Assembly (NCBI RefSeq): GCF_040436365.1
Contig: NZ_AP026369.1
Span: 2,156,501-2,220,500 of the forward strand
Source of the DNA: Hydrogenimonas sp. SS33
Lineage (GTDB): Bacteria > Campylobacterota > Campylobacteria > Campylobacterales > Hydrogenimonadaceae
DNA: 64,000 nt
Reading direction: 5' to 3'
The notes under the pieces were generated by a model. It ran no database searches. It was given only the letters and a program-made list of their open reading frames with translations, and was not told the DNA's origin. The translations under genes and the position numbers were made by a program. Shown piece after piece: positions 45,874 through 57,556 of the stretch (positions are counted from its first letter, which is position 1; every line of letters starts with the position of its first letter).

Positions 45874-47025
45874 TTATCCGCTGCAACATGAGGGTTTCCC
45901 TTTGCGGAACCGGGGGGCGGCAATGTGCCGGAGGGTCAGGAGCCAGAGAAGCACGGAGGAGAGGGCCGCCACGAGGCCGACACGCTCTTCGAGGTGTACC
46001 ACCGCTTTGGGGTCGATCTGCAGGGAGGCGAAGAGGGCGTCGATCATGAAGCCGAAAAGGAGCGATCCGGCGACGATGACGCCGATGTAGATGGCGAGGG
46101 CGCGGGAACCCAGCATCTTCTTCACCACCCCCATCGTGACGGTGTTGGTGGCGGGCCCGGCGGAGAGGAAGACGAAGGCGGCCCCCATGCTCACGCCCCC
46201 CAGCACCAGCGAGGCGGCGATGGGAAGGCTGGCGGTGGCGCAGACGTACATCGGCACGGCAACGGCGATGACGAGAAGGTACCCCAGCCAGGTGTACTGC
46301 GCCAGCCAGATCCCCAGGTCTTCGGGCATCGCCGCGGTGATCGCCGCCCCAAGCAGCAGCCCCCACAGCAGCGGTTTGGCGATGTCGCCCATCAGGGTGA
46401 CGAACCCGTAGCGCATGGCGGCGGCGAAACTGAACCGTTTGCCCTCCTCTTCGTTGCAGCTGTCGTCGCAGCCGCAGGCGCTCTCCTGCGCCGGTTCCGC
46501 CTTGGGCGTGAAGGCGACGGGCCTTTGGGCGGAGGGTGCCGTCGCGGCGGTGAAGAGGGGCGGCACACTTTGGGCGGGGGAGGGTGACGACGGGGTAGCC
46601 GCCACTTTTTCGTCGGCGGCGTAGAAGTTGCTCAAGACCCCCGCGGCGAAGGCGATGAGGATGGAGGTGACGATGCGGTAGAGGGTAAAGAGCCAGCCGA
46701 ACATGCCGAAGGTGGCCAGAATGGAGTCGATACCGGTGATCGGGGTGGAGATGAGAAAGCTCAGCACCGCCCCGCGGCTCGCCCCCTCCTTTTTCAAAGC
46801 CGCCGCCAGCGGAATGACGCCGCAGGAGCAGACCGGCAGCGGAATGCCGAAGAGTGTGGCTTTGAGGACCGACATCACATTGTCCCGGCCCAGGTGGCGC
46901 TGGACGAAATCGTCCGGGACCAGTTCGTACAGGATTCCGGCGAAAAAGAGGCCGAAGAGAATGTAGGGGGCCATGGCGGCGGTCAGTTCCCAAAGGGCGA
47001 TGAAGAAGGTACCGATCATTTCCAT
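45874..47025 (-). CDS. SO_0444-type Cu/Zn efflux permease
   Basis: A 383-residue permease with about ten helices. Signature motifs: [20 protein letters not shown] and [13 protein letters not shown] in the first half, [18 protein letters not shown] and [16 protein letters not shown] in the second. A central hydrophilic loop carries CGCDDSC, a likely metal site, and the protein ends SCCSG. Start ATG 47025 has an aggagg site 8 bases upstream. Co-directional with a DUF4395 protein that overlaps it. Confidence 0.88.
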
Positions 47026-47444
47026 CGGACGATCCTCCTGTAAAAGGTGTACATTTTGCAGCCGACGCAGTAGCTCCAGAGCGCTTCGAGCAGGGCGCAC
47101 AACGCCATGACGGCCATCACGACGCGGAGGAGTTCTATATGGTGCGTCGCGTAGGCGAGCAGGGCCGCCGCTGTCATGCCAAGGCCGATGCGGGCCGCGA
47201 AGATTTTGGGTGCCGCATCGACGACCTGCGGCTCTCCCAGCCTTTCGGCGAGGGGCCTTGCCAGGCGGGCGAAGGGGCTCCAGGGCCGGTAGAAGGAGCG
47301 TGCCGTGAAATCGGCAAGCAGAAGAATCAGCCACAAAGGTTGCGGCCGGAAAATCGTCAGCAGGGCGAAAACGAAGACAAGGGCGCCGACGATCCGCGCT
47401 ACCCGCTCGTTCACCCGTTCGTTGGAAATGGGACAGCTCGACAT
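47016..47444 (-). CDS. DUF4395 membrane protein
   Basis: A 142-residue membrane protein with the DUF4395 opening CPISNERVNERVARIVGALV, then helices about 20-40 and 85-125, and a late CVGCKMYTFYRR. The family often sits next to thiol or metal transport genes. Its stop overlaps the permease start. ATG 47444 fits the family start; an upstream ATG at 47498 would add 18 residues. Confidence 0.8.
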   Translation of the reverse strand: MSSCPISNERVNERVARIVGALVFVFALLTIFRPQPLWLILLLADFTARSFYRPWSPFARLARPLAERLGEPQVVDAAPKIFAARIGLGMTAAALLAYATHHIELLRVVMAVMALCALLEALWSYCVGCKMYTFYRRIVRWK

Positions 47445-47874
47445 GAACTCTCTTTCACAGGCCTCTCCGAAAACCATAGGGATTTCAGAATAGCGCATAA
47501 GATATTTTAATGGAAAGTCTACCTTTGGAAAGATAAATAAGACATTAATTGTCCTATTTATTTCGGTCACTTTTTTGTCGTTACCATCATAGTAAAGTTG
47601 TGTGGAAAGAGTGTGGAATCTGGAACATTGTAATGAACAAATGGATTGGTCGTAATCGTTTGTTGCCCCCGAGTGTTTTTATCTGTTTACAATAGATGAA
47701 TAGTCCAAAAAGGCCCGAATCATCGTATTAAACAGTTTTTATTTCAAATTTAACACATAAATTCATATTATAGTGACTCACATCTAGACAAATTAAAAAA
47801 ATTTATAATTTCTTCATCGCGGGCATGCTACCATTGGCAATCAGAAAAATCGAACCAAACTATAAGGAGAATCG
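47445..47874. other. A+T-rich intergenic region between divergent operons
   Basis: About 430 bp, much richer in A+T than its surroundings, between DUF4395 (minus) and the lipoprotein gene (plus). It contains -10-like TATTAT near 47765 and ATAATT near 47806 and an aaggag site just before 47875. I see no gene, tRNA or clear operator. Its length suggests complex control of the lipoprotein gene. Confidence 0.5.
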
Positions 47875-49956
47875 ATGACACGAAGAGGCTTTATCAGCAG
47901 GAGCGCGGCTGCGGCATTGGCCGGCGGGTGGATCTTTTCCGGATGCGGAGGCGGCGGCAGCGGAAGTGACGGTGGAAGCGGCGGCACTCCTTCCGGGCAG
48001 ACGCGTAACGCCGCCGATACGGCCGTGGCTTCGCTGCAGCGACGAAACGAGAGTCTGACCGCGACGATGGACGACTTTCGCCGAGAGAGCGGGGAGACGG
48101 TCGGCGACGGTGTCTCCGGACGCAGTTTCCTGCGCTCCACCCGGAGCGACCCCTCCCGCTTTTTCACGGAGTACGGTTCGCCTTTCGGTGAAGGGGCTTC
48201 CGGCATTCCCCACTACTTCGGTACCGGGAACGATGTCTGGACCGCATACCGCAAGAGCCTCGACATCGCGGCGGGCCAATACCGCAGCCAGTTTCTGAAG
48301 ATGAACGCCGCATTGCGCGTGGCGGGGTACAGGTCGGGCCAGGCCCCTTCCACCCGCGACCTTTCAGCCGGTGCGGTCGAACGTGCGCAAGTGACCCTGC
48401 GGGAAACCGACACGAGCGCCCTGGATAGTTTCAACGAACTGGTGGATCAGCTCGCCTCCGGCAATTTCACGGAGAGCATCGCCGATCTTCTGACCGTTTC
48501 GCTCGGAGTGCTGAGAGAGACGCTGGAGGCGCTGTTGAGCCAGGACAGAATCAAGGGGCTCGCCTACACTGTTTTGACCTATCTTGCCGTCGACAAACTG
48601 CTGGAGCTGGTCAAGGAGAAGAGCCTCTCCGATCTCAATTTTCTGGGCAACGACAATATCGTCATCAGTCTGGGAAAGATGGTGATCGCCGCGTTGGCCC
48701 TTCTTGGACTGATCTCCCTGTCGAAACTGGCCCCCTCCGCTTCCGGCAGGTCGGTAGAGCCCCGGGCGGAGGCGGCCGACGGGGAGATGCTGGCTTTTCT
48801 GCGCAATGTCATCACCCAGGGAAAGCTGGTAACGGTACTCTTCGGGTATGTCACGAAGATTCTCACGGAGATGACCGCCGATACCCAGGCGACGGCCAAA
48901 CGCCTGACGGAAAGCCTCTCCGACCCCGCCTATACGCTGACACCGGAAGACGAGACGCTGATAGAGAAGCTCAAGGTGCGCTCCAAAGTGCTCGCCGTCT
49001 TCGGCCTGGCGCTCAAAACGCTTTTCGGCCTTCTCGCATCGAACCGGAATGCCCTTTTCACCGATGCCGACGGCCGGTTCGCAGGATTTTCGCAAAGCGG
49101 GGAGGCCGGAGATTTCGATGTGCTTTTCGGCTCGGCCGTCAACCCCTACGATGAAACCTTCAACAGCTATCTCCACGGCCTCATCGGGGAGATTGCCGCC
49201 GGAGGGGGCTCCGACAGCGGGTCGTCGTCGGTTTTAGAGGTGATGCAGGCGTTGTCGACGCAGGCCTACAATTTCGCGATCGATGTGGAGACGGACGCCT
49301 ACACCTTTACGACGCAGACCGAACAGGACGCCTACGCCTTCGCCAGCCACCTGGCCGACCTCGCCTACACCTTTACGGCGGGAACGGAGCACGACGCCTA
49401 CACCTTCGCGACCCATCTGAGCGACCTGGCCTACCGGTTCACCATGAAAATCGAGGACGACGCCTACCATTTCGCGCTGCAGGGGATGGAGTGGGGCTAC
49501 CTCTTCGCTTCCCGGGGGGAAGAGGTGGGCATCATGGCCGACAGGGTCCTCTGGATGGCGGTGCAGATAGGGCAGATGGCGGACCGCATCGGGGAGATGG
49601 CGGACCGGATCGTCTATACCGAACAGCTTATCGTCTATACCGAAACGCTGATTCTCGATTTCGGCCTGCTCATCTACGGCGGCATGAAGATCATCGCCAA
49701 CTTCGTACTGACGGGAATGGCGCTGATACTGGACCGGAAGTGGTACAAACCGGAGACGGAAGATGCCATCGTCGATCTCATCGGAAAGAGTGTGGAGCAG
49801 ATGATGGCCAATATGCAGGAGTACGCGCTCGCCGTTCTCGACAATCAGAACAGGCTGCGTCAGACGACCCTCGACGCACTGGATTGGATTCTGGAGATGG
49901 AGGCGCTGCAGCAAAACGGTGAAGGCAACACGACAGAGACGAACGCGACGGTATGA
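47875..49956 (+). CDS. Tat-type lipoprotein with hendecad and heptad repeats, unknown function
   Basis: A 693-residue protein. The N-terminus has a twin-arginine motif (TRRGFI) and a lipobox (FSGC, Cys24), followed by a Gly/Ser linker, suggesting Tat export and lipid anchoring. Residues 50-440 are mainly helical with hydrophobic helices near 262-283 and 318-332. Residues 464-551 hold eight exact 11-residue repeats, each beginning A/G-Y-x-F. Residues 554-595 hold six heptads such as MADRVLW, MADRIGE, MADRIVY. The repeats predict a long coiled coil. The stop overlaps the LolA-like gene (ATGATG). I do not recognise any family. Confidence 0.85.
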   Translation: MTRRGFISRSAAAALAGGWIFSGCGGGGSGSDGGSGGTPSGQTRNAADTAVASLQRRNESLTATMDDFRRESGETVGDGVSGRSFLRSTRSDPSRFFTEYGSPFGEGASGIPHYFGTGNDVWTAYRKSLDIAAGQYRSQFLKMNAALRVAGYRSGQAPSTRDLSAGAVERAQVTLRETDTSALDSFNELVDQLASGNFTESIADLLTVSLGVLRETLEALLSQDRIKGLAYTVLTYLAVDKLLELVKEKSLSDLNFLGNDNIVISLGKMVIAALALLGLISLSKLAPSASGRSVEPRAEAADGEMLAFLRNVITQGKLVTVLFGYVTKILTEMTADTQATAKRLTESLSDPAYTLTPEDETLIEKLKVRSKVLAVFGLALKTLFGLLASNRNALFTDADGRFAGFSQSGEAGDFDVLFGSAVNPYDETFNSYLHGLIGEIAAGGGSDSGSSSVLEVMQALSTQAYNFAIDVETDAYTFTTQTEQDAYAFASHLADLAYTFTAGTEHDAYTFATHLSDLAYRFTMKIEDDAYHFALQGMEWGYLFASRGEEVGIMADRVLWMAVQIGQMADRIGEMADRIVYTEQLIVYTETLILDFGLLIYGGMKIIANFVLTGMALILDRKWYKPETEDAIVDLIGKSVEQMMANMQEYALAVLDNQNRLRQTTLDALDWILEMEALQQNGEGNTTETNATV
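49264..49527 (+). repeat. Eight 33-bp coding repeats (hendecads)
   Basis: They encode AYNFAIDVETD, AYTFTTQTEQD, AYAFASHLADL, AYTFTAGTEHD, AYTFATHLSDL, AYRFTMKIEDD, AYHFALQGMEW and GYLFASRGEEV. Eleven-residue periodicity is characteristic of right-handed coiled coils. It switches to seven-residue periodicity at 49534-49659. Confidence 0.85.
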
Positions 49957-50732
49957 TGAAAAGATATCTGTGGGCCCTGCTGGTTCCGTTGCTTCTTAAC
50001 GCGGCGCCCGATGCCCGGAAAATTTTCGAAGAGAGTGTGCGGCTCTTCTCCCTGCCGAATATCGGTTTTCTCGTAGAGGCGGAGGTGGAGAAGCCGGGAG
50101 GGAGCCAAAAGCGGCGGTTCGTCGTGGCGAGGCATGCGGGGGAGGCGGAAAAGGACCTTCTTATCCGCTTTCTCGCCCCTTCGACGCTCAGATGCACGAC
50201 CATTCTGACCAGGGAGCGTGGAAACAGGGTGCAAACCTACGTCTACTTTCCCTCCATCGGCCGGGTGAGGATCGTCCCCCGGAGCAAAGAGAACAGGGAG
50301 GCGGTGGGCCTGGGAATCTCCTATGCCGAACTGCACGCCGCCGGCGGCCGCTTTCTTCCGGTGGCGCGCACCACCTTCGGAAAGGAGCCCTGTTACCGGA
50401 TCGTCAAAATCGGTGACGACGGAGAGAAGCGGGTCTATCTGATCGGTACGGCGGACAGACGGTTGAAAAAGGTCGAAATCTACAGGGGTGATCGTCTCGT
50501 CAGGGAGGTGTTCATCGACAAGGTGGGCCGGGTAGCGGGGGTGACGATGGTGCTCGCCTGGCATGTCATCGACCGGACGAAGGAGCGGACCATGCGTTTC
50601 CGGGTCGATGCCGCAACGGTCACTTCCGATGTTCCGCCTTCCATCTTCAAAACCAACCGCATCAAACGGTGCAGCTCCCTGCCCATCGCCCGAGCAGGCG
50701 GGGAAGCAGCAGAGAGATCCCCAGCAGGTTGA
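49953..50732 (+). CDS. LolA-like outer membrane lipoprotein-sorting protein
   Basis: A 259-residue exported protein of the LolA-like group (PF17131 type, by the pattern LLIRFLAPSTLRCTTILT, QTYVYFPSIGRVRIVPR, DKVGRVAGVTMVLAWHV). Signal of about 18 residues. Such proteins typically accompany COG1033 RND exporters and carry lipid or lipoprotein across the periplasm. It is translationally coupled to the repeat lipoprotein. Its last 71 bp overlap the converging RND gene, and its tail past about residue 235 looks unstructured. Confidence 0.85.
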   Translation: MMKRYLWALLVPLLLNAAPDARKIFEESVRLFSLPNIGFLVEAEVEKPGGSQKRRFVVARHAGEAEKDLLIRFLAPSTLRCTTILTRERGNRVQTYVYFPSIGRVRIVPRSKENREAVGLGISYAELHAAGGRFLPVARTTFGKEPCYRIVKIGDDGEKRVYLIGTADRRLKKVEIYRGDRLVREVFIDKVGRVAGVTMVLAWHVIDRTKERTMRFRVDAATVTSDVPPSIFKTNRIKRCSSLPIARAGGEAAERSPAG

Positions 50733-52533
50733 AAAAGAGGATCACCGTCATTTCGAGGCCGAAGGCGCCGAGCAGGGAGCCGCAGAAGAGCATGCCGGCC
50801 AGGGCGGCGAGCATCGTCAGGTTGGAGGCGACGATGGGTTTGAGAACGGTGGGAATGCAGGCGCTCCGCTGCCTGGCGTAGCAGATGAAGATGTGGATGA
50901 AACCGTCGGCATAGAGCCCGGCGTAGAGGATCAGGGCGATCATGGAGACGAGGGTCAGGGGCCTCCCGGTAAGGAGGTGCCAGCCAAGAAACATGACGAG
51001 GGGAAAGAGGGCACTGACGACGATAACCGGAACGATGCGCCAGGTTTTGCAATACCGGAGAAAAAAGAGCGCGACGAAGAGGAACGAGAAGAGAAAGCCG
51101 TAAAGCCCCTCCCGGACGAAACGGTCGACCATCGTTTCGAAGTCGGCCACTTTCCCCATCACCTCGAGTCGGAAGCTTTTCGAATCGTCCCGGTAGGTGT
51201 GGACGGTTCGGACGATGCGGTCGAGCAGGTGCGAGGGCGTGAGCAGGGAGACGGTGAACGTGGCGTAGAGGGTCCGTGCATCGGGTGAGAGAAGGGGCGG
51301 CGCCTCACTCCACTCCAGGGCGAGAAGAAACTGGGCGAAAGCGGCGGGGGTCGCCTCTTTCAACGGGCGGTCGGCGAATCTTTCAAAGAGGGTTCCCGTC
51401 GTCACGAAAGGTTTCGCCGCCGGGACGGCCCGCTCTATCCGGGCGAGGAGCGCCTCCGCTTTGCGGGTTGTGGCGAGATCTTCGAAGCTTTGGCCCTTTT
51501 GGGTCGTGTGGACGGCGACGACGAAAGGGAGGGCCGGGCTGCAGCGCCGTTCGAAAGCGGCGATCTGTTGCCGCAGGCCGGACTCTTTGGAGAGCAGATT
51601 GAAAGGGTTGAGGTCGACGGCCAGTCGGGAATGCCCCGCCGCGAGCATGGCGGCGGCCGTCAGGTAGAGGAGCGCCACCCCCCGGACGACCCCCCGCTGC
51701 GTCCATTTTCGATAGAAGCGTTCGATCCATTGGGATCGGACGGTGCGGTGCCGGGCGAAACGCAGCAGCACGGCGAGGTAGAGCCCCAGTATGACGAGGC
51801 CTGCGGAGGCGTGGAGACCGAAAGTGTGCATCAGGCCGAAATCGGAAAAGGAGAGGTAGAGGGTGCTCACCAGGGTGGTGGCGATGGAGACGCCGATGCC
51901 CAGGGCGAGTTTTCGTCGTTCGATCTCCCCCAAATGGAGGTAGTTGAGAAGGGTGGTGGCATAGATGGAGAGGAAGAGCCAGGCAAGCACGGCGACGGCG
52001 TCGACGGGAATCTGCAACAGCCACAGAAAGAGGACGCTTGCAAGCAGGTAGCCGGAGAGCTCCAGCCATATGGCGAGCCAGTAGCGGACGGAGATGAAAA
52101 GAAGGGCCACCCCCGCGAGCAGCGGCAAAACGAAGAGCAGATACCTCTGCAAAGCGGCGTCGAAACCTGTGCGGAAAATTTCGGAGGCGACGAGGGTACC
52201 CGCGTGGGGAAGGCTGCCGAAGATCCGGAGAATTTCATTCTGGTGTTTTCTTTCGAAGAGGAGCAGGTAGAGCGTTTCCCCGTCGTTGGCCGGCAGGCGG
52301 TAGTAGCCGAGCAGCGCCCCCTTTTTCCGTGCCTCTTCCAGGCGTGCGGGGGAGGCATCGCATACGAGAAGGTACTGGCGGCCCGGTGCGAACCAGTCGG
52401 TGCGCTCCTTCTGGCCGGTTCCGGCTGTGAAGAAACTGGCCCACTGGACGGGTTGCCGGGGGATGTGGGAGACGACGAGGTAGAGTGCCGCCCAGACGAA
52501 GAGGAGGGAGACGATCCGTTTGCGAAGGCTCAA
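50662..52533 (-). CDS. RND/MMPL family exporter (operon 2)
   Basis: A 623-residue exporter, shorter than the 713-residue one in operon 1. It has two halves: helices about 130-270 and about 465-615, each after a periplasmic domain; LYADGFIHIFICYARQRSA lies in the second bundle. The TTG start overlaps the barrel gene stop (TTGA). It lies tail-to-tail with the LolA-like gene, which is the standard partner of this exporter class. Confidence 0.85.
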   Translation of the reverse strand: MSLRKRIVSLLFVWAALYLVVSHIPRQPVQWASFFTAGTGQKERTDWFAPGRQYLLVCDASPARLEEARKKGALLGYYRLPANDGETLYLLLFERKHQNEILRIFGSLPHAGTLVASEIFRTGFDAALQRYLLFVLPLLAGVALLFISVRYWLAIWLELSGYLLASVLFLWLLQIPVDAVAVLAWLFLSIYATTLLNYLHLGEIERRKLALGIGVSIATTLVSTLYLSFSDFGLMHTFGLHASAGLVILGLYLAVLLRFARHRTVRSQWIERFYRKWTQRGVVRGVALLYLTAAAMLAAGHSRLAVDLNPFNLLSKESGLRQQIAAFERRCSPALPFVVAVHTTQKGQSFEDLATTRKAEALLARIERAVPAAKPFVTTGTLFERFADRPLKEATPAAFAQFLLALEWSEAPPLLSPDARTLYATFTVSLLTPSHLLDRIVRTVHTYRDDSKSFRLEVMGKVADFETMVDRFVREGLYGFLFSFLFVALFFLRYCKTWRIVPVIVVSALFPLVMFLGWHLLTGRPLTLVSMIALILYAGLYADGFIHIFICYARQRSACIPTVLKPIVASNLTMLAALAGMLFCGSLLGAFGLEMTVILFFNLLGISLLLPRLLGRWAGSCTV

Positions 52534-53858
52534 AACCGTACTCCCAGAGTGGTCGAGAAGATGTTCAGGTCGTGGTCGTCCGGGTAGAGAAGGTAGCGTA
52601 GCTGCAGGGAGAGCCGGCTTTGGTAGGTCAGCGTCACCGTAGGCAGAAAGCTGAACTGCTGCTCCCCTTCCACCGCGCCCAGCATCGTGTAGTTCTCCGC
52701 GGTCACTTCGACGCCGTGGAGGAAAAAGGGGCGGTATCGGCAGTCCCAGATGGCGGCGAAGAGGGTATGACGGTCTTTGTGGCTGTAGAGAACCTGTGCT
52801 TCGAGATCGTTGTAGAAATGCTCTCCGTTGTCGTCGATACCCATGCCTACCGTACTCAGGGCCGTGTAGCCGTCGACGAAGGGGAAGCGGTCACGGTAGG
52901 TGGCTTCCGCGCGGAGTCCGAAACGGGAGAAGGAGGTCTCCCCGTAGAGTGAGACCTGGTTGTACCGGAATCCGTCGACCCCTTTGACGAGGGAGAGGTC
53001 GTTTTGTTCCAGATACTCCTGCAGCGCCCTGGCCGGGTCCTCGCGCTCCAGGGCCATGTCGAGGAGACGGGCGTCGATTTTGACATAGGGGATTTCGGAG
53101 TATTTGTTGAACCAGGAGAGGCCCAGGGTCGTATCGAACCCCTGGTAGGTGAGGTCGAACCCGGCCATCGCCTTGTCGATCGAGAGGTCTTCGGGGTTGT
53201 AGTAATCGTTGACCTGTTTTTTGACCGCCGGCGCGACGGCGTTTCGGTAGGCAGGCAGCAGAATCTCCTTTTTGATCTCTTCGAGCATCGGGTTGTTCAG
53301 GTGTTGGCTCTGCAGATAGGCGGGCAGCAGTCTGTCCAGTGCCAGGGAAAGGTAGGTGCTGGTGTAGTCGTGGTAGCGACGGTCGAAAGGTTCGGCGAAG
53401 AGGCGGAGCCTGACATCCTCTTTCGGCAACAGTTCCACCTTCGCCATCCACTGGGGAATCCGCCGGATCTGGGGGTCGGGATCGTCGAAAAAGGGGAGGC
53501 GGACGGTATTGAGGATATTGGAGACGGAGAGGTAGTCGAGCACGCCGACCTGGGTGACGAATTTGCCGATTTTGACTTCGTTGTCCCCGAAATAGCGGGT
53601 TGCGCTGAGTCGGTTGAAGCTGACACCCGTGTCGGAGAAGTCCTTCTGTCCCTGCATCAGAAGAGAGAGGTCGAAATGCCACTCCGGGAGGTCGGCGGAG
53701 GTGTCTATGAGAAGCAGTCCCGCAGGCAGGGTGTCGGCCCCTTTCATACTCCCGAAGTCGGTGCGAAAAAGAAATGTGGTGGCGGTATTGCCTTTTTCAA
53801 AAAGTGAGGAGGCTTGAAGAGAGAGGGCGAAGAGGAGAAAGATTCGGAACAGACGCAT
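52530..53858 (-). CDS. Outer-membrane beta-barrel-like protein before RND exporter
   Basis: A 442-residue exported protein (signal about 18 residues). The mature part alternates hydrophobic and polar residues in strands, and the protein ends in aromatic-terminated LGVRF, an outer-membrane insertion signal. It resembles the DUF1302-type barrels that travel with RND/LolA-like sets. It is upstream of and coupled to the exporter. It probably gives the outer-membrane exit or entry point. Confidence 0.75.
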   Translation of the reverse strand: MRLFRIFLLFALSLQASSLFEKGNTATTFLFRTDFGSMKGADTLPAGLLLIDTSADLPEWHFDLSLLMQGQKDFSDTGVSFNRLSATRYFGDNEVKIGKFVTQVGVLDYLSVSNILNTVRLPFFDDPDPQIRRIPQWMAKVELLPKEDVRLRLFAEPFDRRYHDYTSTYLSLALDRLLPAYLQSQHLNNPMLEEIKKEILLPAYRNAVAPAVKKQVNDYYNPEDLSIDKAMAGFDLTYQGFDTTLGLSWFNKYSEIPYVKIDARLLDMALEREDPARALQEYLEQNDLSLVKGVDGFRYNQVSLYGETSFSRFGLRAEATYRDRFPFVDGYTALSTVGMGIDDNGEHFYNDLEAQVLYSHKDRHTLFAAIWDCRYRPFFLHGVEVTAENYTMLGAVEGEQQFSFLPTVTLTYQSRLSLQLRYLLYPDDHDLNIFSTTLGVRF

Positions 53859-54038: not shown

Positions 54039-54611
54039 TCAGCTCCTGTCGGGGAAGGAGACGAAGACCTTTTTGACCACCTCTTCGAGGAATTTTTCCC
54101 GCTCTTCGGGGGTTTTGAAGGCTTTGAGGCGGTCGGTCATCTTGGCGTTTCAGAAGACGAGGGTGTCCCGGTGGGGGTCGAAGGCTTCGACGATGATCTT
54201 CCCTTCCGTCGATTCGTGGGAGGCGGTGGATTTGCCGACGACGTAGTGGTAGCCGTAATGGCCGTAGTAGGGGCTGTAGTAGCTGGGGGCGATGCCGATG
54301 ACCCGGTAGTCGTTGGAGAGCTGACGCCGGTCGGTGGCGCCCAGGTGGTAGGTGATGACGAAATCGGCATGACTCTTGTCGGTGACGGTGTACCCCTTGC
54401 GCTGCATCTCTTTGGCGATGAGCCGGTCGAGGATCTGCTGGGCACTGCGGGTTCTGGGGTCCTCAATGTCGGGATGGACGATGGCGACGCTCTTGAGTTT
54501 GGAAAAGTCGCAACTCTCATGTGTGTGACTTTCGAGGGAGCGGCCGGCGCAGCCGGACCAGAAAAGAAGGGTGGCGGTACTCAGAAGTGCGATGAAAAGT
54601 CGTCTTGTCAT
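54039..54611 (-). pseudogene. DUF4136 lipoprotein with in-frame TGA at a conserved Trp codon
   Basis: The reading frame encodes 153 residues to a TGA at 54150-54152, then continues 36 codons in frame to a second TGA at 54039-54041. The continuation (DRLKAFKTPEEREKFLEE, then VVKKVFVSFP) aligns with the C-termini of the two upstream paralogues, where the position of the TGA is Trp (IFW, VFW). A TGG to TGA change explains this. Lipobox SGCAG is intact. The truncated product may still be made. Confidence 0.8.
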
Positions 54612-54634
54612 GAACGGGAGTTCTTGGGTTGGGA

Positions 54635-55195
54635 TTAGGAAGCGCCCTCGGGTTTGGGCGGGAAACGGGAGAGTATCTTCTCTACGACGGAGCGGATATA
54701 GGCCATCCGTTCCTCGGGGGTGTCGAAATCGTGCAGGGAGTCGGTGGCGACGCCTCGCCAGAAGATGCGGTTGCCTTGGGGGTCCACGGCGTCGATGACG
54801 ATCTTCGCCTCGTCGTAGGTCACCTCGCGGGTCACCGGCACGACGCCTCCGTAATAGCCGTAGTAGGCGGGATAGTAGGGGTAGAGCCCCACCATCTCAT
54901 AGTCGGTGACGATCTGCCGCTGACGGGTGACGTCGAGATGGAACAGGACGATGAAATCGGCGTGGCTGCGGTCAGTGATTTCGAACCCTTTTTGCCGCAG
55001 CACTTCGCGAATCGCCCGGGCGAATCGCTGCTGGGCCAGGGAGATGACGCCGTCTTCGCTCTGGGCGTAGAGGATGGCCGCTTTTTTGAGATGGCCGAAG
55101 TCGTAGGAGGGGTTGTAGTCCGTACTCACCTGCAGGCCGGAGCATCCGCCAAGCCAGAGGGCGAGCAGGAGTGTCAGGAACGATCGCATCATCAT
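54635..55195 (-). CDS. DUF4136 lipoprotein
   Basis: A 186-residue lipoprotein (lipobox LGGC) with the DUF4136 pattern: YDFGHLKKAAIL, SHADFIVLFHL, a Tyr/Gly-rich loop and IVIDAVDPQGNRIFWRGVA, ending with helices. It lies between two paralogues, in one operon. DUF4136 proteins are envelope lipoproteins of unknown role. Confidence 0.87.
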   Translation of the reverse strand: MMMRSFLTLLLALWLGGCSGLQVSTDYNPSYDFGHLKKAAILYAQSEDGVISLAQQRFARAIREVLRQKGFEITDRSHADFIVLFHLDVTRQRQIVTDYEMVGLYPYYPAYYGYYGGVVPVTREVTYDEAKIVIDAVDPQGNRIFWRGVATDSLHDFDTPEERMAYIRSVVEKILSRFPPKPEGAS

Positions 55196-55728
55196 CGTTT
55201 CGCCTCCGGGAAAGGTTTGAGAAGTTCGTAGACGACGGCGTTGAAAAAAGCGCGCCGGCTTTCGGGTGTCGTGAAATCGGGCATCGACTTCTGTGTCGAT
55301 GTGCTCCAGAAGACCTTTCTCGTGCGGGGGTCGACCATGTCGATGCGTATGGCCACCCTGTCGCGGCTCGGGGTGATGGAGGTGCCCACGCTGCCGCCGC
55401 CGTGACGGCCGTAACTGCCGATGCCGAATCCGAAACTCACATTGGAGGGGACATTCTCGACGACGGAGACATCGTAGCGGGCGATGAAGTCGGGTTGCAC
55501 GGCGGAGGTATACCCTTTGTGGCGCAAATTTCCTTCAATGGCGCCGGCGATGCGCTCCGCATTGAGCGGGTCGATGTCGGCATCCGGGCTCTTTTCGACG
55601 GCGAAGGTTTTCAGCGCCATCTTCTTGAAAGAGGGGAGGTAGTCGACCCGCGGCCCGCCCGCACTGCAACCCGCCAGAAAGGCAAGTATCGAAACGGTGA
55701 CAAGATAGAGCAGGCTCTTTTTCAACAT
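55192..55728 (-). CDS. DUF4136 lipoprotein, first of three tandem genes
   Basis: A 178-residue lipoprotein (lipobox LAGC) with DUF4136 features (QPDFIARYDVSV, GHGG-type Gly-rich loop, DMVDPRTRKVFWSTS). Its stop overlaps the next gene. A minus-strand TATAAT (55736-55741) lies only 7 bases before the ATG, so the operon may be leaderless. Confidence 0.87.
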   Translation of the reverse strand: MLKKSLLYLVTVSILAFLAGCSAGGPRVDYLPSFKKMALKTFAVEKSPDADIDPLNAERIAGAIEGNLRHKGYTSAVQPDFIARYDVSVVENVPSNVSFGFGIGSYGRHGGGSVGTSITPSRDRVAIRIDMVDPRTRKVFWSTSTQKSMPDFTTPESRRAFFNAVVYELLKPFPEAKR

Positions 55729-56232: not shown

Positions 56233-56408
56233 GGGGCTTTGCCCCTCTTTGATTTCAGTTTTTGGTCATTGGTCATTGGTCATTGGTCATTGGTCATTGG
56301 TCATTGGTCATTGGGCATTGGGCATTGGGCATTGGGCATTGGGCATTGGGCATTGGGCATTGGGCATTGGGCATTGGGCATTGGGCATTGGGCATTGGGC
56401 ATTGGGGC
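56233..56408. repeat. Long heptamer array TTGGTCA x7 and TTGGGCA x13, with hairpin
   Basis: GGGGC-TTT-GCCCC hairpin (56233-56245) precedes seven perfect TTGGTCA units (56262-56310), thirteen perfect TTGGGCA units (56311-56401) and a final TTGGGGC. The switch between the two sub-types occurs once, at 56311. Open frames across it encode repetitive GHWALGI-type peptides and are not real genes. Confidence 0.95.
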
Positions 56409-56475: not shown

Positions 56476-56618
56476 ATCAGCTTCGCTGATACTTCTCACT
56501 TCTCACTTCTCACTTCTCACTTCTCACTTCTCACTTCTCACTTCTCACTTCTCACTTCTCACTTCTCACTTCTCACTTCTCACTTCTCACTTCTCACTTC
56601 TCACTTCTCACTTCTCAC
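56476..56618. repeat. Heptamer array TTCTCAC x18, with hairpin
   Basis: An ATCAGC-TTC-GCTGAT hairpin (56476-56490) is followed by 18 perfect TTCTCAC copies (56493-56618). The array runs into the 3' end of the Sir2 gene and supplies its stop codon. Confidence 0.95.
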
Positions 56619-57441
56619 TGCTTTCCGTTATCGCCTCGATCCCTTCGAGCCCTCCCATCGGCAGGCCCCAGCCGAGTCTGCTTTCGATCTGCGGTTCCCC
56701 GGGGTTGATGCGGATCACTTTTGCGTCGAACTCTTTGGCGATCCGCTCTGTGGTGAGGCGGACGGTGGGGACGGCGGTTCCGGCGCCGATTTCGACGATG
56801 ACGAGGCGGCGGCGGTTGACGACGACACGTTGGAGGAAGTCTTCGAAACGCTCCTGCTGGGCATCGGTGCGGCGGCTGTCCCATCCCCAGTCGCCGAACA
56901 TCAGGATGTTGGGTCTGGCCGTGGCACCGCAGCGGGGGCAGTGGGGCCATTGCAGGGCGCGGAAGGCTTTCATGTCAATGGGTACTTCCACCCCCTCCGC
57001 GCTCCAGATGCCGGCATCGCATTCGGTGCATTGGAGATGGTGGATGCTGCCGTGGCACTCCGCGATCCGCTCTTCATCGTAACCCGCTTTCTGAAATTGA
57101 CCGTCGACATTGGAGGTGAAGACGAACCAATCTTTCTTTTTCCGCGCCAAATCCAGGAGCATCGTGAAACCGGGGTGGGGAAGCGTTGTCCGGTAGAGGT
57201 GCAGGCGGTGGCCGTAGAAGGCCCAGGCGAGCGCAGGGTCGGCTTCGAACCAGTGGGGGCTGGCCAGTTCCACGAAACTGAGTCCGAGCCGCCTGGCGAC
57301 AGGGTAGGCTCTCCAGAACCCCTCGTTGCCGCGGAAATCGGGAAGGCCCGAATCGACCCCCATGCCCGCCCCGGCGGTCACGAGCAGGGCGTCGGCCTCC
57401 TGTAACGCGTTTTTCGCCTCTTCTGTTGCCCCGGTATCCAT
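56608..57441 (-). CDS. Sir2-family NAD-dependent deacylase
   Basis: A 277-residue sirtuin: [15 protein letters not shown] (NAD site), [12 protein letters not shown], catalytic His in [10 protein letters not shown], zinc cysteines (QCTEC and CPRCG), [10 protein letters not shown] and INPGEPQ. It removes acyl groups from lysine using NAD. Start ATG 57441; the longer frame lacks a ribosome site. The last four codons (SSEK) and the stop lie in a TTCTCAC array. Confidence 0.9.
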
Positions 57442-57556
57442 GGAAAGATTGTAAAACACAAACCTTAAACAAACCTTGACAAAACAGACAAAAGGCGTTA
57501 CAATAGTTTTAAATTGAGTGAACTTCAATAAAGAAAGTTCAAGGAAAGAGGTTAGG

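Follow-up and report, generated by a model that had tools for sequence, protein, structure and literature searches.

Our analysis of a 64-kb window (the whole stretch of DNA analysed) from the complete 2.25-Mb genome of Hydrogenimonas sp. SS33 revealed a rare set of four genes that is inherited as one unit in a few bacteria of two phyla. It combines an RND transporter, a LolA-like periplasmic carrier and a probable outer-membrane beta-barrel protein of DUF1302 type with a large Tat-type lipoprotein, here named LIPO, and the results support LIPO as an undescribed part of one system with the other three.

Layout and distribution of the four-gene cassette

The open reading frames of the cassette span positions 47875-53858 of the window, in the order LIPO>LolA> <RND<barrel. 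The plus strand carries LIPO (693 aa, 47875-49956) and the LolA-like carrier (259 aa, PF17131, 49953-50732), whose start overlaps the LIPO stop by 4 nt. On the minus strand are the barrel gene (442 aa, 52530-53858) and the RND gene (623 aa, 50662-52533), which also overlap by 4 nt at the RND start. The two pairs meet tail to tail, with a 71-nt overlap between the LolA-like and RND genes (50662-50732). These overlaps and strands agree with the preliminary description of this DNA, which had proposed that the 693-residue lipoprotein is co-translated with the carrier, and that the RND exporter is co-translated with the barrel-like protein and converges on them.

Full-length relatives of LIPO were found in seven other genomes with an intact cassette and in one broken copy, in four lineages belonging to Campylobacterota and to Thiomicrorhabdus (Gammaproteobacteria). 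The gene order is the same in all eight intact cassettes (the window, G150, G422, G272, G369, G353, G449 and Thiomicrorhabdus sp. 6S3-12), the LolA-like and RND genes end no more than 20 nt from each other, by overlap or gap, in every one except the window, and the 4-nt overlap of barrel and RND was present wherever checked. The encoded proteins are 28-60% identical, the convergent order is kept in two phyla, the flanking genes vary between the lineages, and the trees of LIPO and RND match in topology. Within the genus, full-length LIPO and a close RND occurred in the same two of 18 genomes, where they are adjacent, and a phylum-wide search of 397 and 394 genomes placed the LIPO N-terminal region (E<1e-58) and a close RND (E<1e-110) in the same six genomes. 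Of 369 genomes searched in the class to which Thiomicrorhabdus belongs, the Thiomicrorhabdus genome with the cassette is the only one that encodes a full LIPO, and a few others carry the C-terminal module or the heptads alone (see below). A contig scan with LIPO alone gave no matches, and with the C-terminal alignment as query it led to Thiomicrorhabdus and Thiovulum. In the homologue survey, which had been set beforehand as the test that could refute the association, every full-length LIPO with an intact locus lay inside the same four-gene cassette; four lineages are a small sample for this linkage. No cassette was found on plasmid records, and no lipid-metabolism gene was tied to it.

The broken copy is in Thiomicrorhabdus NP51, a MAG (L027:8434-11568), where LIPO is split between two frames and the LolA fragment is followed by an IS-like ORF near the contig end; a MAG assembly error is possible. 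Two sets of neighbouring genes were rejected as members of the system. Three successive DUF4136 lipoprotein-like genes lie upstream of the barrel gene in the window (54150-55728, minus strand) and are missing from the flank in G150, and the two-component genes beside the G150 barrel do not adjoin the cassette in the window. Upstream of LIPO there is an A+T-rich intergenic region (47486-47874, 33% G+C) with a promoter-like match on the plus strand (47743-47771). The suggestion that this region, given as 430 bp, indicates special control was not upheld: shorter intergenic regions of the window are equally A+T-rich, and neither its length nor its composition is conserved, as G150 has only ~120 bp upstream of LIPO. 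Elsewhere in the window, a gene for an SO_0444-family Cu/Zn efflux transporter (NCBIfam 369 bits, cut-off 300) is found at 45874-47334 on the minus strand, and two 7-bp tandem arrays, (TTGGGCA)x20.7 at 56262-56406 and (ACTTCTC)x18.4 at 56491-56619, lie close to the 3' end of a sirtuin-like ORF (56608-57528, minus strand) and may mark a hypervariable site.

The lipoprotein and its helix module

LIPO starts with a twin-arginine signal (MTRRGFIS) and a lipobox (FSGC), followed by a Gly/Ser-rich linker, with Cys24 as the predicted lipidated residue (47875-47946, plus strand, by inspection). The motifs RRxF and (S/V)GC were recognised by eye, and all six aligned orthologues share residues R3, R4, F6, G23 and C24. 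The Tat-signal profile TIGR01409 scored 11.1 bits, under its cut-off of 16.7; each of the five cassette genomes examined for TatC encodes it. We assign LIPO to the Tat-exported lipoproteins on the twin-arginine motif and lipobox, both read by inspection and with TIGR01409 below its cut-off, together with the presence of TatC in the genome. Neither Pfam, NCBIfam, PHROGs, PADLOC nor the PDB yielded a family match worth naming, so the protein proved as unfamiliar as first described; an anti-phage role of the cassette was rejected for lack of a PADLOC match. Mature LIPO is strongly acidic and is predicted to be all-helical by a low-confidence AlphaFold2 model (seven sequences, pLDDT 37.7). This model and that of the barrel (two sequences, 38.8, also of low confidence) were too poor for fold searches. 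The N-terminal helical region (47947-49239, plus strand) is specific to the cassette and contains a hydrophobic stretch of TM strength at residues 262-280; since Sec might insert such a helix into the membrane, it plausibly explains the use of Tat. This cassette-specific part, residues 25-455, evolves fast, with 19-66% identity by segment and 19-28% between phyla.

The remainder of the protein is repetitive. Eight 11-residue (hendecad) repeats of the DAYxFA type occupy residues 462-546 (49258-49512, plus strand) and have a hydrophobic period of 3.66 that was equally strong in none of 1000 permutations, which bears out the earlier view of LIPO as a repeat protein. They are followed by a heptad segment (GEEVG..MADRIGEMADRIVYTEQLI.., residues 546-602, 49510-49680, plus strand), whose 57 residues are 93-97% identical across phyla in all orthologues. 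Full-length orthologues differ from one another in 43-66% of the synonymous codons, so selection holds the identity of the heptads, and the comparison indicates that the hendecads and heptads are under purifying selection. A recent transfer of the conserved segment was ruled out, because 43-84% of the codons for identical residues differ synonymously.

The C-terminal part of LIPO is a separate mobile module that is also found without RND or LolA neighbours. The hendecad/heptad part is present in proteins of 317-362 aa that have no signal peptide and adjoin ssb in four Candidatus Thiovulum genomes (L002-L005, L028-L030), and in gammaproteobacterial proteins of 276-301 aa. Short exported proteins that have the MADRIGEMADRI heptads alone occur in Campylobacterota, Gammaproteobacteria and haloarchaea (L111:3704-4189, on a Natribaculum luteum plasmid; L103:4959-5618; L104:5660-6235; L006:1096-1740; L025:3832-4308). 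The proteins on haloarchaeal Natribaculum plasmids combine a twin-arginine-like start with heptads, and in an alignment of 147 columns a Natribaculum heptad protein shares 52% identity with one from gammaproteobacteria. Among plasmid records only the 40-aa heptad motif was found, in Natribaculum; it was not found in phage records, nor in viral contigs by exact pattern. None of the module or heptad proteins outside the cassette matched a Pfam family above cut-off. Cytosol-type, periplasmic and archaeal proteins all use the module, which suggests that its probable function is to self-assemble or to bind a shared ligand, and not just to contact RND proteins.

Transporter, carrier and barrel, and their known relatives

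The LolA-like protein passes the model of PF17131, a LolA-fold family (49.7 bits, cut-off 30), has a Sec-type signal peptide by inspection, and its family profile matches the solved 'outer membrane lipoprotein-sorting proteins' 9tp6 (8.5e-9) and 3bk5. The RND protein belongs to the RND superfamily (HAE3/MMPL-like) by its 12 hydrophobic segments and its similarity to known RND proteins, its profile weakly matching HpnN (3.7e-4) and other RND pumps; Asp543 is invariant. Neither this protein nor four of its orthologues matched Pfam MMPL at E<=1, which marks the short cassette RNDs as a divergent branch. In the tree a 100/100 branch separates them from the RNDs that are encoded in the phylum with LolA-like and barrel proteins or with MlaA and MlaC. 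The barrel of the window scored 17.8 bits for DUF1302, below the cut-off of 23.2, and its orthologue in G449 passes with 38.8 bits; Phe is the last residue in all aligned orthologues, as is usual in outer-membrane barrels.

In Campylobacterota, co-directional trios of RND, LolA-like and barrel genes also exist without LIPO (L080, L082, L083, L085, L087). Like the cassette they combine MMPL/RND, PF17131 and a barrel (DUF1302 in L082), but their RND proteins are longer (754-800 aa) and occupy a separate part of the tree, all genes are on one strand, and there is no lipoprotein. One genome, G422, carries both a trio and the cassette. At three further Campylobacterota loci (L081, L084, L086) RND genes are arranged in operon-like fashion with MlaA and MlaC (Pfam confirmed in L086), which are phospholipid-transport proteins, and this suggests RND-powered phospholipid transport. 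These loci resemble the cassette in coupling an RND protein to periplasmic and outer-membrane lipid-handling proteins; they differ in that MlaA and MlaC replace the barrel and the LolA-like protein and in their separate RND clade. The LolCDE-LolA-LolB pathway shares with the cassette a LolA-fold carrier, which here is encoded beside a lipoprotein gene, yet the cassette has an RND protein instead of an ABC transporter, and LIPO as its cargo is putative.

Outside the phylum, the described arrangement most like the cassette is AmeABCD, which Castellaniella defragrans needs or uses in tolerating apolar monoterpenes. This is a conserved HAE3 RND cassette of four genes, in which AmeA is a DUF1302 protein, AmeB a LolA-superfamily (DUF1329) protein and AmeD a COG1033/HAE3 RND protein (PMC6394551). 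The LIPO cassette has the same type of core, with adjacent genes for DUF1302, LolA-superfamily and HAE3-like RND proteins. In contrast, AmeC is a COG4447 protein where our cassette has a Tat lipoprotein, AmeD has 787 aa and the cassette RND 623 aa, AmeB is a 451-aa DUF1329 protein and its counterpart here a 259-aa PF17131 protein, and the convergent layout is that of the LIPO cassette. We found neither an AmeC (COG4447) homologue nor a further shared ORF in the cassettes, the fourth place being that of LIPO. In P. putida, growth on Tween20 involves DUF1302/DUF1329 genes that act together with a transporter (PMC10866462). BstABC, which transports sterols, also joins an RND-type inner-membrane protein to periplasmic lipid-binding partners, one of them all-helical; however, BstB is PhnD-like and BstC a TRAP T-component, and the described trio includes no barrel or LolA-like protein (PMC10942540). 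By kinship with AmeABCD, the P. putida genes and the relatives within the phylum, the RND/LolA-like/DUF1302 core would move lipids or hydrophobic molecules.

AmeABCD and the same-phylum trios confirm that RND (COG1033), LolA-like and barrel proteins are known associates, as stated in the preliminary description. The idea of an undescribed envelope system stands in part: it applies to LIPO, but the RND/LolA-like/barrel core is of a known kind (PMC6394551). The literature searched, which covered few subscription journals, did not describe any Tat lipoprotein together with RND/LolA. As far as that literature shows, LIPO, the short RND branch missed by Pfam and the fixed convergent layout are new.

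Possible roles of the cassette

We propose, with a confidence just short of an even chance, that the cassette encodes a proton-driven system for transferring a lipid or other hydrophobic molecule across the envelope, with LIPO as its dedicated bridging or docking partner. Driven by the proton gradient, the RND protein would extract the molecule from the inner membrane or insert it there. The LolA-like carrier would ferry it through the periplasm, and at the outer membrane the DUF1302 barrel would receive or deliver it. LIPO, exported folded by Tat and lipid-anchored via its Gly/Ser linker, would span the periplasm with its hendecad/heptad helix, and the near-invariant segment would oligomerise or dock with partners, so that the carrier runs on a fixed track. 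In this scheme we infer the hydrophobic substrate, the bridging or docking role of LIPO and the direction of transport. The scheme is supported by the recurrence of the cassette in eight genomes of four lineages with different flanks, by the matching trees of RND and LIPO, by the kinship of the core set out above and by the hendecads and heptads under purifying selection. The presence of the helix module in proteins without any RND partner counts against it, as does the failure to find a lipid-metabolism gene tied to the cassette, and so does the position of the LolA-like gene, which accompanies RND and barrel genes in ordinary trios and always lies directly downstream of LIPO in the cassettes, an arrangement that would favour a carrier-client pair. 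The same recurrence bears on whether the neighbourhood reflects chance or habitat with no functional link. Convergent gene pairs are not one operon, which would allow for this, but the retention of one convergent order at such protein divergence, between different flanks and in two phyla, strongly disfavours it, and we regard it as hardly credible.

The position of the LolA-like gene and its membership of a LolA-fold family are consistent with LIPO itself being the cargo, extracted from the inner membrane by the RND protein, its acyl chains shielded by the LolA-like protein, and placed in or across the outer membrane by the barrel. Gly/Ser linkers after the lipidated Cys, as after Cys24 of LIPO, are common in outer-membrane and surface lipoproteins. 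A LolA-like/barrel export cluster, possibly for lipoproteins, has also been proposed in Borrelia (PMC13078400). On the other hand, a folded protein of ~70 kDa is unlikely to pass a barrel of such size, and the existence of trios without any lipoprotein argues that the core has other cargo. Lipoproteins with Gly at +2 go to the outer membrane by the E. coli rule, and LIPO, having Gly there, would be expected to reach it by normal Lol sorting. We consider LIPO as cargo a live alternative, if a rather doubtful one, and the corresponding proton-driven sorting route for one prefolded Tat lipoprotein, in which RND, LolA-like protein and DUF1302 barrel replace LolCDE/LolB with no ABC transporter, unlikely. 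A further reading would fit the amphipathic 11-residue repeats and the presence of the module in signal-less proteins of Thiovulum and gammaproteobacteria, which suggests that its function may lie outside the envelope. LIPO would then be a protein of the cell surface or the periplasm that binds lipid or particles and may self-assemble, its helix covering a deposit of hydrophobic material (membrane, a lipid body or elemental sulfur) that the trio supplies or removes. Thiovulum and Thiomicrorhabdus are sulfur oxidisers, but this is a weak link to habitat, as a great many environmental relatives oxidise sulfur too; lipid or sulfur binding is putative, and we judge such a coating role quite improbable.

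If LIPO were the cargo, the cassette would represent a new way of sorting lipoproteins. The module adds an undescribed helical element, near-frozen in sequence, that is common to bacteria and haloarchaea. RND/LolA-like/DUF1302 systems are widespread and poorly understood, and a dedicated, never-absent lipoprotein offers a handle on what such systems carry and on how the periplasm is spanned.
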